This document shows, piece by piece, positions 39,837 to 47,022 of a stretch of DNA of 64,000 bases. The notes beneath the pieces were generated by a model that saw only the letters and a list, made by a program, of their open reading frames with translations, did no database searches and was not told the origin of the DNA. Each line of letters opens with the position of its first letter. Within the stretch, counting starts at the first letter, position 1. Origin of the DNA: Ahrensia marina (GTDB taxonomy: Bacteria; Pseudomonadota; Alphaproteobacteria; Rhizobiales; Rhizobiaceae); the NCBI RefSeq assembly GCF_001293565.1, contig NZ_JXMU01000018.1:1-64000 (forward strand), written 5' to 3'. A program made the position numbers and the translations under genes.

Positions 39837-40227
39837 TTATCCATATGTCCTGCAATATCATTTATGATTGGACAGTCGGGACGGCTGTCACCGTGGCAAT
39901 GATCAGCCAATTGTTTGAGTGTTGATCGCAGCGATTTTAGTTCTTTTAGTTTGCGGTCAATCTCGGTTATTTTTCTAGTGCAAGATCTTTCACGTCTGAA
40001 CTTGCCCGTTCCTTGTCCTCATAGAGCGACAGCAACAAGCGACATTCTTCGATCGTAAATCCCAAACTGCGAGAGCGCTGAACGAACGCCAGGCGATGAA
40101 TGTCCGCGTCTGCATAATCGCGATATCCATTGGCAGCGCGCGCTGGTTTGACCAGTTTAATATCCTCGTAATAGCGGATAGTCTTAGCTGGCAGTCCAGT
40201 TGTCTCGGATGCTTCACCTATGTTCAT
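39833..40227 (-). pseudogene. cueR: Copper-responsive regulator CueR, frameshifted
   Basis: A MerR-family Cu(I) regulator split by a one-base shift. The first 86 codons (MNIGEASETTGLPAKTIRYY, helix-turn-helix and part of the dimer helix) end LALEK then TAA at 39967-39969. The shift is at an A5 tract (39970-39974); one more A would continue ITEIDRKLKELKSLRSTLKQ and restore the metal loop CHGDSRPDC (C111, C119) to a stop at 39833 that overlaps the next gene as ATGA. Ser76-Ser77 replaces the divalent-sensor Cys, so this is a Cu(I) type. A real mutation, a sequencing slip in a homopolymer, or slippage are all possible. Confidence 0.88.
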
Positions 40228-40399
40228 GACCTGCCTCCTTTAGCTCTTTGCAGTACAATTCACGTAACCGTTCTATTTCTTGTTCGCTAAAACCTAATTC
40301 GATTGCCCTAGACAGAAAATCCGAATTCGAACTTTCATTGATTTCAGGCTTGTGTCTTTCGCCCAATAACTTCTCGGGTGGTTGTGGCTCATCTCTCAT
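40214..40399 (-). CDS. Small charged protein at the head of the cueR operon
   Basis: A 61-residue soluble protein (MRDEPQPPEKLLGER at the start, LSRAIELGFSEQEIERLREL in the helical half) with one Cys and a His-rich end (KEAGHEHR). It overlaps cueR by 14 bases. The CueR-type -10 element ends seven bases from the ATG, so the message would have almost no leader. No family is recognised. A copper-linked regulatory or binding function is possible from context only. Confidence 0.6.
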   Translation of the reverse strand: MRDEPQPPEKLLGERHKPEINESSNSDFLSRAIELGFSEQEIERLRELYCKELKEAGHEHR

Positions 40400-40406
40400 T
40401 AAGCGC

Positions 40407-40437
40407 CTTTTAGGGCTTCCACCTGCTGTAAGGTCAA
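40407..40437 (-). promoter_or_regulatory. CueR-type promoter of the cueR-copCD-dsb operon
   Basis: Minus strand TTGACC (40432-40437), 19-base spacer with TTACAGCAGGTGGAA, and TAAAAG (40407-40412). It would drive about 14 tightly packed genes down to 32355. Confidence 0.85.
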
Positions 40438-41031: not shown

Positions 41032-43488
41032 CTACGGTAAGAGTTTAACGGATCGAAGCCTTAGAGAGTTTGCGACTACAGACACTGAAGACAAGCTCAT
41101 TGCTGCTGCTGCAATCATCGGTGACAAAAGTGTGCCGCTAAGCGGGTAGAGTATACCTGCCGCAATCGGTATGCCTGCGGTATTATATGCAAACGCAAAA
41201 AACAGGTTCTGTTTGATGTTACTCAACGTTGCGACAGAAAGTTTTCTCGCACGTACAATGCCTGTGAGATCGCCCTTGAGCAGTGTCACGCCTGCACTCT
41301 CAACGGCAACATCAGCGCCCGTGCCCATTGCAATGCCAACTTCAGCTGCGGCCAGAGCTGGTGCATCGTTAACCCCATCTCCGGCCATCGCCACCTTGTG
41401 GCCTTGCGCATGAAGTTCGTCGACGAGCGCCTTCTTATCTTCCGGCAACACGCCTGCTCTCACTTCATCAATACCAAGTTGATCAGCAACAGCGCGCGCT
41501 GTTTTCTCATTATCGCCGGTCGCCATGATGATCTTTAAACCTGCTTCATGCAGAGCAGCTATCGCATCGCGGGATGTGGCTTTTATTGGATCGGTAACAG
41601 CGATTAAACCTGCGAGCTTTCCATCGATTGCGATATACATTGCAGTCTTGCCTTGTACACGCAGTGCATCTGCCTGTTTATCCGCAGCCTTATGATCTGC
41701 ACCAGCGACATCCATCATCGCCGCGTTGCCAAGGGCAATCTTTTGTTTACCTGAAGTACCTTGTACGCCTTTGCCAGTGATTGCCTCAAAGCTGGTTATT
41801 GGTGCAGCGGCGATATCTTTCGCCTCAATGCCTTCCACAATAGCTTCAGCCAATGGGTGTTCAGAACCGGCTTCTATACCCCTAACCATCGCGAGCATGG
41901 CTTCCTCGGATACGTTGCCAAAGGTAACTACATCAGTCAGCGCAGGTTTGCCCTCGGTGAGCGTTCCGGTTTTATCGACGATAAGAATATCAACCTTGGC
42001 CATACGTTCCAACGCCTCGGCATCTTTGATAAGAACACCGGCTTGGGCGCCGCGCCCCGTGGCTGTCATGATCGACATGGGTGTCGCCAAACCAAGCGCA
42101 CAGGGGCACGCAATTATCAGCACGGACACCGCCGATACAATTGCAAATACAAAAGATGGATCGGGGCCAAAGGCAAGCCAGATGAAAAACGTGAATATTG
42201 CAATGATAACAACAGTTGGTACAAAATAAGAGGCAACTCTGTCTGCCAATCCTTGGATTGCTGCGCGCGAGCGTTGCGCCGATGATACCATTGAGACGAT
42301 ACGCGCCAGCACGGTCTCATCACCGACGCGGGCCGCCTTAATGATCAGCGATCCATTTTTGTTAATCGTGCCGCCTGTGACCGTATCACCCTCCGACTTC
42401 TCAATTGGTAGCGGCTCTCCGGTCAGCATACTTTCATCGACCGATGTGCGCCCTTCCAGAACAATCGAATCCACAGGGATCGCTTCTCCAGGACGAACGC
42501 GCATGTGATCGCCTTCAATGATGTTTTCCAGTGGCGCATCATATTCATCACCATCTGGCGTGATGCGGCGCGCCATTTTGGGCGCTAAATCTAGCAGAGC
42601 GCGGATCGCGTCTCCGGTGCGTTCGCGGGCGCGCAGTTCCAATACCTGCCCAACGAATACCAAAGCGACAATGACAACTGCAGCCTCATAATAAACAGGC
42701 ATGTGGCCGCCTGGCATTTGCAGCCCGGCCGGGAATAAACCTGGCAAGAACGTGGCGATGGTCGAATAGAGATAAGCCGCCCCGACCCCAATCATGATCA
42801 GGGTCCACATATTAAGATTCCACGTTTTGATCGAGGTCCAACCGCGATGGAAAAACGGAGCAGCGGCCCATACGATCACCGGTGTCGCTAAAGCGAACTC
42901 TAGATACAGGCTGACCTTCTCGCCTAGCCATTCTCGAATAGGTAAGCCGAAGAACGGTCCCATTGTTAAAATTAGAAGAGGAACCGCTGCTCCGATACTC
43001 ACCCACAGTCTGCGCGTGAAATCGATTAGCTCATGGTTAGGGCCTTCAGCGACGCCGTCCATCGGCTCCAGCGCCATGCCACAAATCGGACATGTGCCCG
43101 GCCCTTCCTGAACAATCTCTGGGTCCATCGGGCAGGTAAACATGCTGTTCTTGGGTGCAGCTTGCTTCTTTTTGGCTTTGTTGCCGGATAGATAAAAATA
43201 GGGATCATTTTCGAACTTGTCGTGACAGCCTTGGCTACAAAAATGAAAATCGTCGCCCTTGTGAGTGAGTGTTGGTTTTCCCGCATCCAGTTTAACAATC
43301 ATGCCGCAAACCGGATCTTTTACCGCACCGTCTTGCGGCACGGTCGCATTTTTCAGGATATCTGCCGGTAAAGCTAGCTCAACAGCCCTGGCATCATGTT
43401 CAAAGTGATTGTGGTTATGACCACTGTGTTCACCGCTGCAACAACTGCTCTTGTCAGCCCGATGATCGCTGTGGTCTGCTTTTTCCAT
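41032..43488 (-). CDS. copA: Cu(I)-exporting P-type ATPase with YHS and metal-binding N-domains
   Basis: An 818-residue PIB-1 ATPase. The N-terminus is His- and Cys-rich, then a YHS domain (about 57-97, [11 protein letters not shown] and [12 protein letters not shown]) and a heavy-metal-binding domain (about 115-141, TCPMDPEIV and [10 protein letters not shown]) replace HMA domains. The core has [29 protein letters not shown] and [11 protein letters not shown]; the last helices hold the YN and MSLSS motifs of copper pumps. GGAGAC precedes the ATG. A CueR-type promoter is directly upstream. Confidence 0.95.
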
Positions 43489-43512: not shown

Positions 43513-43543
43513 ACCGTAAGGCTTCTGGCTGATGGAAGGTCAA
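43513..43543 (-). promoter_or_regulatory. CueR-type promoter of copA-petA
   Basis: Minus strand TTGACC (43538-43543), 19-base spacer with TTCCATCAGCCAGAA, and TACGGT (43513-43518). It is back to back with the next promoter, 20 bases away. Confidence 0.85.
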
Positions 43544-43593: not shown

Positions 43594-43621
43594 GAGCGCG
43601 TAAGACACGAAGGAGATGACA

Positions 43622-43972
43622 ATGGCTTACTCACGCTTTTTCGCAATGATTGCGACTTCGACCATAATTATGTTGGGTCTGATGTACCTAAATACTTATG
43701 CACTAGACCACGTATTTTTCAGTGAAACACGCAGCTATATGGCGCTTTATATGGGTGCCGTGATGGCGATTGTGATGCTCGCATTTATGCTCGGCATGTA
43801 TACCAATACTAAGATGAACATTGCGATCTTCGCTGGCGCGGCAATTATTTTTGCTGGATCGCTTTATTTGGTGAGTAGTCAGGACACAGTCGCAGACGTT
43901 TCGTGGATGAAAGCGCTGATTGCTGACTTGAATGGCGGGCCATCTGCGACGCCAGAAATCGATGGGAAATGA
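43622..43972 (+). CDS. Membrane part of a DUF305-type protein, lacking the DUF305 domain
   Basis: A 116-residue protein with about three helices (FFAMIATSTIIMLGLMYLN, YMALYMGAVMAIVMLAFMLG, MNIAIFAGAAIIFAGSLYLV). AGGAG six bases upstream fixes the ATG at 43622. The end, VADVSWMKALIADLNGG, starts like the join to a DUF305 domain, which normally continues with a His-rich helix, but here it stops. It is the first gene after a CueR-type promoter and overlaps the glutaredoxin-MauE gene. Relationship to DUF305 proteins is from memory of their layout. Confidence 0.65.
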   Translation: MAYSRFFAMIATSTIIMLGLMYLNTYALDHVFFSETRSYMALYMGAVMAIVMLAFMLGMYTNTKMNIAIFAGAAIIFAGSLYLVSSQDTVADVSWMKALIADLNGGPSATPEIDGK

Positions 43973-44723: not shown

Positions 44724-44754
44724 TTGACCTTCCCCCCACTCTAAGCCGTAGCAA
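44724..44754 (+). promoter_or_regulatory. CueR-like promoter of the APC permease gene
   Basis: TTGACC (44724-44729), a 19-base spacer with only the left arm conserved (TTCCCCCCACTC), and TAGCAA (44749-44754). Weaker than its siblings. Confidence 0.6.
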
Positions 44755-44816: not shown

Positions 44817-46148
44817 ATGCAACATAACCAAGCCGAGCACGAAGCCAGAAATAACTCTATTTCATTGAGCAGTGCAGTTGCGATGGGAACCGGCGTGATG
44901 ATCGGCGCGGGCATATTTGCGCTGACAGGGCAAATTGCCGAACTTGCCGGTCCACTATTTCCATTAGCTTTCATCGCAGGTGCATTCATCTCAAGTGTGA
45001 GTGCGTACGGCTACATTAGGATGTCAAACAAGTGGCCATCGTCAGGTGGCATCGCGATGATTTTGCAAAAATGCTATGGATCCGGGGCGGTTGCCGCAGG
45101 CGCTGCACTATTGATGGCGCTAAGCATGGTTATTGCTGAGAGCTTAGTAGCGCGTACATTTGCAAGCTATGTTCTCCGCCCGTTTGATATCGCTGATGGC
45201 CCGTTAGTACCGATACTCGCAGTCGGAGTCATTGCCTTTGCTTTTCTCGTAAACATAGCTGGAAATAAGTCAGTTGGCCTTTTTTCAGTTGTGATGGCAG
45301 GCCTAAAAATTGGCGGTATTGCATTGTTCGGGATCGCCGCACTCTGGTCCAGTGGCTTCCAATTTACTGCTGCTTCACAATCGAGCCAAACATTTACAAT
45401 CACCGGCTTCGTAGCATCAGTAGCTCTTGCGATCTTAGCGTTTAAGGGATTCACGACCATTACCAATAGTGGTGGTGAGATTGTTGATCCCAACCGCAAT
45501 GTGGGAAGAGCCATTGTGATTTCTATCGCAATTTGTGCCGCGGTCTATCTGCTAGTAGCCTTCGGCGTTGGATCGAGCCTTACTATCGATGAAATTATCT
45601 CCGCACGAGATTACTCGCTTGCGGAGGCCGCCGAGCCCGCGCTTGGGCAGATTGGGTTCTACTTAACGATTTTGCTTGCAGCTGTGGCGACTGCGTCTGG
45701 TGTATTGGCAAGCGTTTTTGCTGTGTCACGCATGCTCGCGATGCTGACAGAGATGAAAATGATACCGCACAGTCATTTTGGAATGAAAGGGCCGATCCAG
45801 CGTCACACTTTGATATACACAGTGGTTATTGCATCCATACTAGCTGTGTTTTTTGACCTCGGCCGTATCGCATCGCTTGGCGCCTTCTTCTATCTCGTGA
45901 TGGACATCGTTGTTCAGTGGGGTATTTACCGATTTCGTCGACAAGAAATCGGCGCTTCTGCAGTGGTTCTGTTGGCAGCTATAGCGTTTGATGCAGTAAT
46001 ACTTGCAGCATTCACTATGATGAAATTGCAGAGCGACCCAGCCATTGTAGTTTATGCTATTGGCGCAATTTCAGCGGTCTTCATTTTTGAACGATTTTAT
46101 CTTTCAACTTGGATCGAATCTGAAGAGGGCGTCAACAAATCTAGTTGA
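44817..46148 (+). CDS. APC-superfamily amino acid permease
   Basis: A 443-residue transporter with about 12 helices. Helix 1 has GTGVMIGAGIFALTGQIAEL, typical of the APC fold; FKGFTTITNSGGEIVDPNRN is the conserved helix 6 region. The substrate cannot be read from sequence. No binding-protein or enzyme partner is near. A CueR-like promoter lies upstream, so the transporter may answer to copper, for instance by taking up a Cu-chelating or protective amino acid; that is conjecture. Confidence 0.88.
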   Translation: MQHNQAEHEARNNSISLSSAVAMGTGVMIGAGIFALTGQIAELAGPLFPLAFIAGAFISSVSAYGYIRMSNKWPSSGGIAMILQKCYGSGAVAAGAALLMALSMVIAESLVARTFASYVLRPFDIADGPLVPILAVGVIAFAFLVNIAGNKSVGLFSVVMAGLKIGGIALFGIAALWSSGFQFTAASQSSQTFTITGFVASVALAILAFKGFTTITNSGGEIVDPNRNVGRAIVISIAICAAVYLLVAFGVGSSLTIDEIISARDYSLAEAAEPALGQIGFYLTILLAAVATASGVLASVFAVSRMLAMLTEMKMIPHSHFGMKGPIQRHTLIYTVVIASILAVFFDLGRIASLGAFFYLVMDIVVQWGIYRFRRQEIGASAVVLLAAIAFDAVILAAFTMMKLQSDPAIVVYAIGAISAVFIFERFYLSTWIESEEGVNKSS

Positions 46149-46188
46149 TAGCGCCGATACACCCGCTTTCGAGATGATATTTTGCAAT

Positions 46189-46281
46189 TCATTCGTCGCC
46201 GATATTTGGAAAGAAGATGACCCACACGAACGCTGACAGCACGCCGGCAGTTAGACCAATAATTACAAAGCTAAATGTCAT
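46189..46281 (-). CDS. 30-residue single-helix membrane protein
   Basis: A micro-gene from ATG 46279-46281 reading MTFSFVIIGLTAGVLSAFVW then VIFFPNIGDE. It is one hydrophobic helix with an acidic end. A CueR-type promoter points at it from 46326-46356, giving a leader of about 38 bases, and no other gene lies in that direction before the convergent permease. The Shine-Dalgarno context is poor. It is unrecognised and could be a small regulator or subunit of a membrane protein. Confidence 0.6.
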   Translation of the reverse strand: MTFSFVIIGLTAGVLSAFVWVIFFPNIGDE

Positions 46282-46325: not shown

Positions 46326-46356
46326 TTCGTAAGCTTTCCACTGGCTGTAAGGTCAA
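46326..46356 (-). promoter_or_regulatory. CueR-type promoter of the 30-residue gene
   Basis: Minus strand TTGACC (46351-46356), 19-base spacer with TTACAGCCAGTGGAA, and TACGAA (46326-46331). Confidence 0.8.
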
Positions 46357-46386: not shown

Positions 46387-46417
46387 TTGACCTTCTACCT
46401 ACTGGAGGCGCTAGCAA
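46387..46417 (+). promoter_or_regulatory. CueR-type promoter of the 46433-47411 genes
   Basis: TTGACC (46387-46392), 19-base spacer with TTCTACCTACTGGAGG, and TAGCAA (46412-46417). It is back to back with the site at 46326-46356. Confidence 0.8.
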
Positions 46418-46432
46418 ATACTTGGAGGCTTT

Positions 46433-46906
46433 ATGAGTAGATCACTAAGAACAATCATTAACACACCAGAATTCAACATTGCGGTGTTTTCATTTCTGCT
46501 TCATTTTGTTTGGGAATTCGTTCAGGCACCGACTTATTCAGGTATGGTCGAAATGAACCACTGGGACGGCATCAAGCTTTGCATGTCTGCCACTTTTGGT
46601 GATGTGGGTTTTGCGCTTACGGCCTTTATTGTAACGAGCATAGCAGCCAGATCACGCGATTGGTTCGCATCTCCTAAAGCTTGGCAGCTCCTGCTTTTCT
46701 TAAGCGTTGGGATCGCACTGACTGTCGGCTTTGAATATTACTACACGAACATAACCTTGCGCTGGACCTATTCTGACTTGATGCCTCTGGTACCGCCATT
46801 TGGCACCGGCCTTAGTCCCCTCCTCCAATGGATCATCGTACCCCTACTCGCGCTTGGTATAACGCGGCGCCAAATTGCAGGCGCTGCAACAATGGAGGCC
46901 ACATAA
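46433..46906 (+). CDS. Copper-island membrane protein, unrecognised
   Basis: A 157-residue protein with four hydrophobic segments (IAVFSFLLHFVWEFVQAPTY, CMSATFGDVGFALTAFIVT, WQLLLFLSVGIALTVGFEYY, LQWIIVPLLALGI). GGAGG precedes the ATG by four bases. Conserved-looking residues include His, Trp and Glu in helix 1 (LHFVWEF). It is first in a three-gene set under a CueR-type promoter. No function can be given. Confidence 0.78.
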   Translation: MSRSLRTIINTPEFNIAVFSFLLHFVWEFVQAPTYSGMVEMNHWDGIKLCMSATFGDVGFALTAFIVTSIAARSRDWFASPKAWQLLLFLSVGIALTVGFEYYYTNITLRWTYSDLMPLVPPFGTGLSPLLQWIIVPLLALGITRRQIAGAATMEAT

Positions 46907-47022
46907 TGATGAATGAAACAATGGGAAATGGCATGATGGACTTCGGTTTTTTTTGGATGGTTATGTTGGGCCTTCTGATCATTTTGGCGGTATTCGCACT
47001 CGCCAAATATCTAATGAAATAG
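46906..47022 (+). CDS. Met-rich micro membrane protein, 38 aa
   Basis: A 38-residue protein, MMNETMGNGMMDFGFF at the start then one helix (WMVMLGLLIILAVFALAKYL). GGAGG at 46894-46898 lies seven bases upstream of the ATG, which overlaps the preceding stop as TAATG. The Met-rich N-terminus would face the periplasm or cytosol and could bind Cu(I). The visible start of the gene after merA (1-31) is alike. Possibly a widespread but little noticed family of metal-island microproteins. Confidence 0.78.
   Translation: MMNETMGNGMMDFGFFWMVMLGLLIILAVFALAKYLMK

Follow-up and report, generated by a model that had tools for sequence, protein, structure and literature searches.

The window we analysed is a stretch of 64,000 nucleotides on a 93-kb contig of Ahrensia marina; many of the related copper islands occur in the family to which this genome belongs. 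Within the island, 284 bases separate the gene for an APC-type permease from that for P157, a conserved membrane protein, and both are read on the plus strand (Table 1). Inside this gap, on the minus strand, an ORF reading of the window gave a frame of 30 codons starting with ATG, MTFSFVIIGLTAGVLSAFVWVIFFPNIGDE; both this frame and the convergent permease had been correctly described in the first-pass annotation. The same annotation called it the only frame in the gap. The 30-codon frame is indeed there, but a 42-aa GTG frame (46225..46097) also lies downstream of the same promoter and extends into the 3' end of the permease gene.

Table 1. Features in and around the gap between the permease gene and P157 in the copper island.
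Feature	Position	Strand	Details
CueR-type box of copA	43513..43543	-	29.2 bits
CueR-type box before permease	44724..44754	+	24.1 bits
APC-type (amino-acid-type) permease, convergent to the 30-aa frame	44817..46148	+	behind the box at 44724..44754
30-aa frame	46189..46281	-	ATG at 46281; one predicted membrane helix; coding status uncertain; no relative found
CueR/MerR-type promoter, minus arm (putative orphan)	46326..46356	-	29.1 bits (simulated maximum 11.6)
CueR-type promoter, plus arm; predicted to drive P157	46387..46417	+	25.1 bits; -35 TTGACC, 19-bp spacer, -10 TAGCAA
P157, conserved copper-island membrane protein, predicted plus-arm target	46433..46906	+	unmatched in Pfam and NCBIfam
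mini2, conserved 38-aa Met/Gly-rich single-helix protein	46906..47022	+	overlaps P157 stop

Facing the 30-codon frame, and beginning 75 nt upstream of its ATG, we found the CueR-type promoter that had been proposed at first reading. It consists of a -35 element TTGACC (46356-46351), a -10 element TACGAA (46331-46326) and, within the 19-20 bp looked for in such promoters, a 19-bp spacer with a dyad (ACCTT..GGAAGG-like). It has been reported that a 19-bp spacer with an internal dyad is a hallmark of metal-sensing MerR promoters (PMC3431237). When scored with a matrix of 36 positions, derived from 54 copper-island boxes in related islands, this minus arm was practically equal to the copA box (29.1 vs 29.2 bits) and far above chance, the best score per simulated 64-kb sequence having a mean of 6.2 and a maximum of 11.6 (30 runs). 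Seven boxes in the window exceeded 20 bits with the same matrix. The genome also encodes a candidate regulator in trans, a second CueR on G000:C12 (87% over 86 aa, open frame of 136). The CueR copy of the island itself (39967-40227, minus strand) breaks off after 86 aa, where a run of A carries a frame shift, and the C-terminus with CHGDSRPDC sits in another frame; this shift may be genuine or may reflect a sequencing error. Before cueR lies orf61 (40217-40437, minus strand), a 61-aa frame behind its own strong CueR box, with relatives in L049 and L062.

A comparison of 92 strong boxes confirmed that the minus arm has no larger target. The longest frame behind it, 42 aa, is the shortest in the whole set (the next is 56 aa), and the other strong boxes front recognisable genes, for example those for CopZ-like HMA proteins, orf61 and CueR. 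The promoter had also been called dedicated, and this description proved untenable: a plus-strand box at 46387 stands back to back with it, before the gene at 46433, with the -35 starts of the two arms 31 bp apart.

A scan of GTDB genomes provided 80 P157 loci, and the box that precedes P157 recurs among the loci of relatives. The full divergent double box was clear in two relatives, L092/L045 and L081, where the -35 starts are 28 bp (L092) and 26 bp (L081) apart and the minus arm stands before Rieske-CopA. P157 and DUF305 are divergently oriented in L079 and L122, and on the DUF305 side of L122 there is a second CueR-like dyad that lacks a TTGAC -35. Both partner types (CopA/Rieske and DUF305) are found 2.6-6 kb to the left of the pair within the window, where copA (41032-43488) now carries its own box, and DNA similarity between this locus and other regions ends at the box. 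The DUF305-type gene of the window (43616-43972, plus strand) lacks 40 aa that its relatives have: the stretch starting MIPHHSIAIL is absent, in frame, between two MKA repeats. The island's closest relative, in G198 (L062 8617-9939), matches it at 75-86% for several proteins; its order is rearranged, and no P157 was found there.

The comparable spacing of the pairs here and in L081 and L092 would be consistent with a minus box that serves chiefly as an additional site for CueR binding, adjusting the activity of the plus promoter of P157 and giving rise to no meaningful transcript itself. We judge this to be very improbable: the minus box has a good -10 at the correct 19-bp spacing, and one box suffices for most P157 genes.

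The genes on the plus side of the pair are conserved. P157 has 35 invariant positions among 16 relatives, including H24, H43, C50 and D57; it occurs repeatedly behind CueR boxes and is also carried on many plasmids of marine bacteria. The adjoining mini2, MMNETMGNGMMDFGFFWMVMLGLLIILAVFALAKYLMK, has a strong Shine-Dalgarno sequence, and members of its family begin with a Met/Gly-rich segment, contain one helix and end in a conserved AALVKYLMK-like stretch. Using a profile made from mini2 relatives, we detected the family in 39 of the 80 P157 loci, in 28 cases at most 700 bp from P157 and on the same strand. No Pfam or NCBIfam family corresponds to mini2. It is plausible that the mini2 family represents copper-linked small membrane proteins, and mini2 is a better candidate than the 30-aa frame for the small copper membrane protein of the locus. 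The more useful outcome of this analysis is the pair of families P157 and mini2: both are conserved and associated with copper promoters, and neither has a match in Pfam or NCBIfam.

We then compared the 30-aa frame with 248 comparable spurious frames, among which it ranked in the top 0.4% for hydrophobicity (KD19 2.46) and in the top 1.2% for codon log-odds (0.34 per codon), combining a coding-like composition with a credible membrane helix. Some ORF of at least 20 aa starting 35-120 nt behind the box is expected with a probability of ~0.7, and one with helix-like hydrophobicity (KD19 >= 1.6) at the same position with ~0.04. For KD19 >= 2.4, a threshold picked post hoc once the frame had been seen, simulation and random sampling put the chance at ~0.002-0.004. 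These features, together with an intact and correctly spaced minus promoter and a regulator present in trans, suggest that the frame might be a genuine gene for a membrane micro-protein that is specific to the lineage and induced by copper, translated from a minus-promoter transcript whose leader would be ~37 nt. We treat this as a tentative and rather unlikely alternative, against which stand the dependence of the hydrophobicity argument on a threshold set after viewing the frame and the ribosome-binding-site and conservation results that follow.

The frame is preceded by almost no Shine-Dalgarno complementarity (-0.9 kcal/mol vs a random median of -2.4), so that the ribosome-binding site sought as a mark of a real small gene was missing; three neighbouring genes have similarly weak values (-0.1, -0.2 and -1.5 kcal/mol). 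Family-model searches returned no match for the frame, and the sole family listed in a Pfam-wide scan, MtrF (E 0.29), is unrelated. No relative was found in 300 close genomes, in 394 genomes of the family and 385 of the class (~780 together, with overlap between the sets), in a plasmid search, or at ~100 copper loci (80 P157 loci and 18 permease loci). The same search found the 38-aa mini2, located 0.6 kb away, in 16 other genomes. The check suggested in the first-pass annotation, a search for the 30-residue sequence in other copper islands, thus ended without a relative while its control worked. A similar micro-frame in copper loci scored 39 at best, where shuffled sequences reached up to 42 (89 vs 43 for the mini2 control), and matches with E 0.03-0.1 in three genomes fell inside frames of 121-1061 aa and were not credible. 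For the gap DNA, plasmids yielded just 30-bp chance matches, and no relative close enough to keep the flanking non-coding DNA was found in the genomes searched. Conservation of the kind expected of a real small gene was therefore not seen, in a set of genomes that offered no close sister locus, which bears on very young genes.

A related proposal is that a newly arisen, lineage-specific membrane protein of 30 residues captured a CueR arm orphaned by rearrangement of the island and became copper-induced. This seems doubtful to us; translation of the frame, if it occurs, would make the locus a clean example of gene birth behind an orphaned, metal-regulated promoter.

Concerning the RNA, the predicted minus transcript was less stable than its shuffled versions (z +2.0) and no Rfam family matched it, so that neither sign of a structured regulatory RNA, a stable fold or an Rfam match, was present. 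The initial inference that either the small frame or the RNA itself is the product is therefore not supported, given the lack of relatives, the weak Shine-Dalgarno, the unstructured RNA and the absence of an Rfam match. The minus promoter could instead reduce expression of the permease at high copper, through either a non-coding antisense transcript or colliding transcription. The permease is convergent, with 178 nt between its end (46148) and the predicted -10 (46326), and it has its own, weaker CueR box; no terminator was found by consensus downstream of the 30-aa frame and before the permease, which makes readthrough into the permease possible. However, besides the lack of a structured or Rfam-matching RNA, such an arrangement is absent among relatives of the permease, and we consider this explanation improbable.

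Our best explanation, to which we assign a probability of about one half, is that the minus arm is the intact but orphaned half of a divergent CueR-type pair whose former target was lost by rearrangement. The plus arm would drive the P157-mini2 copper-island genes, and the minus arm would still be able to fire upon binding of copper-loaded CueR. The gene that it once served would have been a CopA/Rieske- or DUF305-type partner, as among relatives, no longer adjacent to the arm, probably owing to a rearrangement of the island around the permease. The present transcript of the minus arm would be short, or antisense into the 3' end of the permease gene, and the 30-codon frame upon it would be fortuitous or at most very young. 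From these sequences we infer three things: an ancestor with the partner gene, CueR binding at the minus arm, and transcription from it.

The orphaned-arm reading is favoured because the box equals that of copA in quality and is far above chance, because divergent pairs in relatives place the minus arm before a partner gene, and because the frame downstream is the shortest of 92 while no relative of the 30-aa frame emerged from a search whose control worked. It is also favoured by the presence of the partner types 2.6-6 kb away, with copA behind its own box, and by DNA similarity that stops at the box. It is weakened by the hydrophobicity and codon-likeness of the 30-aa frame, both above those of equally short spurious frames, and by the small number of relatives, two, with a clear full double box. 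The undiminished quality of the minus box argues for recency or use, since a pure relic should decay, and the box could also have arisen independently. We infer the rearrangement itself, as no partner trace was found and the relatives include none close enough to date it. A decayed start of a neighbouring gene was considered as the origin of the frame and rejected: HMM scores for CopA, CueR, DUF305, cytochrome c, P157 and GrxMauE were within the shuffled range (Rieske, with too few N-terminal sequences, was left out), and no trace of a lost partner was found in the 30-aa frame among the neighbours tested.

Among known small proteins, FixS/CcoS (PF03597), a small protein with one helix that belongs to the maturation of cbb3 oxidase, shares with the 30-aa frame the single helix and a short stretch resembling GLxAFxW (6.9 bits, rank 4 among ~1000 shuffled versions). 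The frame is without the LIP start, the GQ(F/Y)DD motif and the RIL tail, and we rejected membership since the PF03597 model found no match at E <= 0.1 in this genome (G000). KdpF, MgtS and AcrZ are small single-helix transporter partners with regulated expression. They resemble the frame in size and in their single helix, with no sequence relationship or partner shown for the frame, and by analogy a micro-protein might adjust the activity of a copper transporter, in the manner of KdpF or AcrZ with their own transporters; the partnership with CopA or the permease suggested by the first-pass annotation gained no support. The pairing of AcrZ with AcrB is an example of such a small single-helix transporter partner (PMC7267776). 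CutF of Rhodobacter capsulatus is also a small copper-linked frame in an alphaproteobacterium (PMC8456105, PMC9973294), but its effect is on the downstream gene of its operon, whereas, judging by the gene order, no gene appears to follow the 30-aa frame. Unlike the other CueR-type boxes compared, the minus arm has no sizeable gene behind it; its motif is nevertheless that of the copA, DedA, multicopper-oxidase and orf61-cueR boxes of the window, and it shares the TTGACC -35 and the 19-bp dyad spacer with the CueR-activated copA/cueO-type promoters of the MerR family (PMC3431237).
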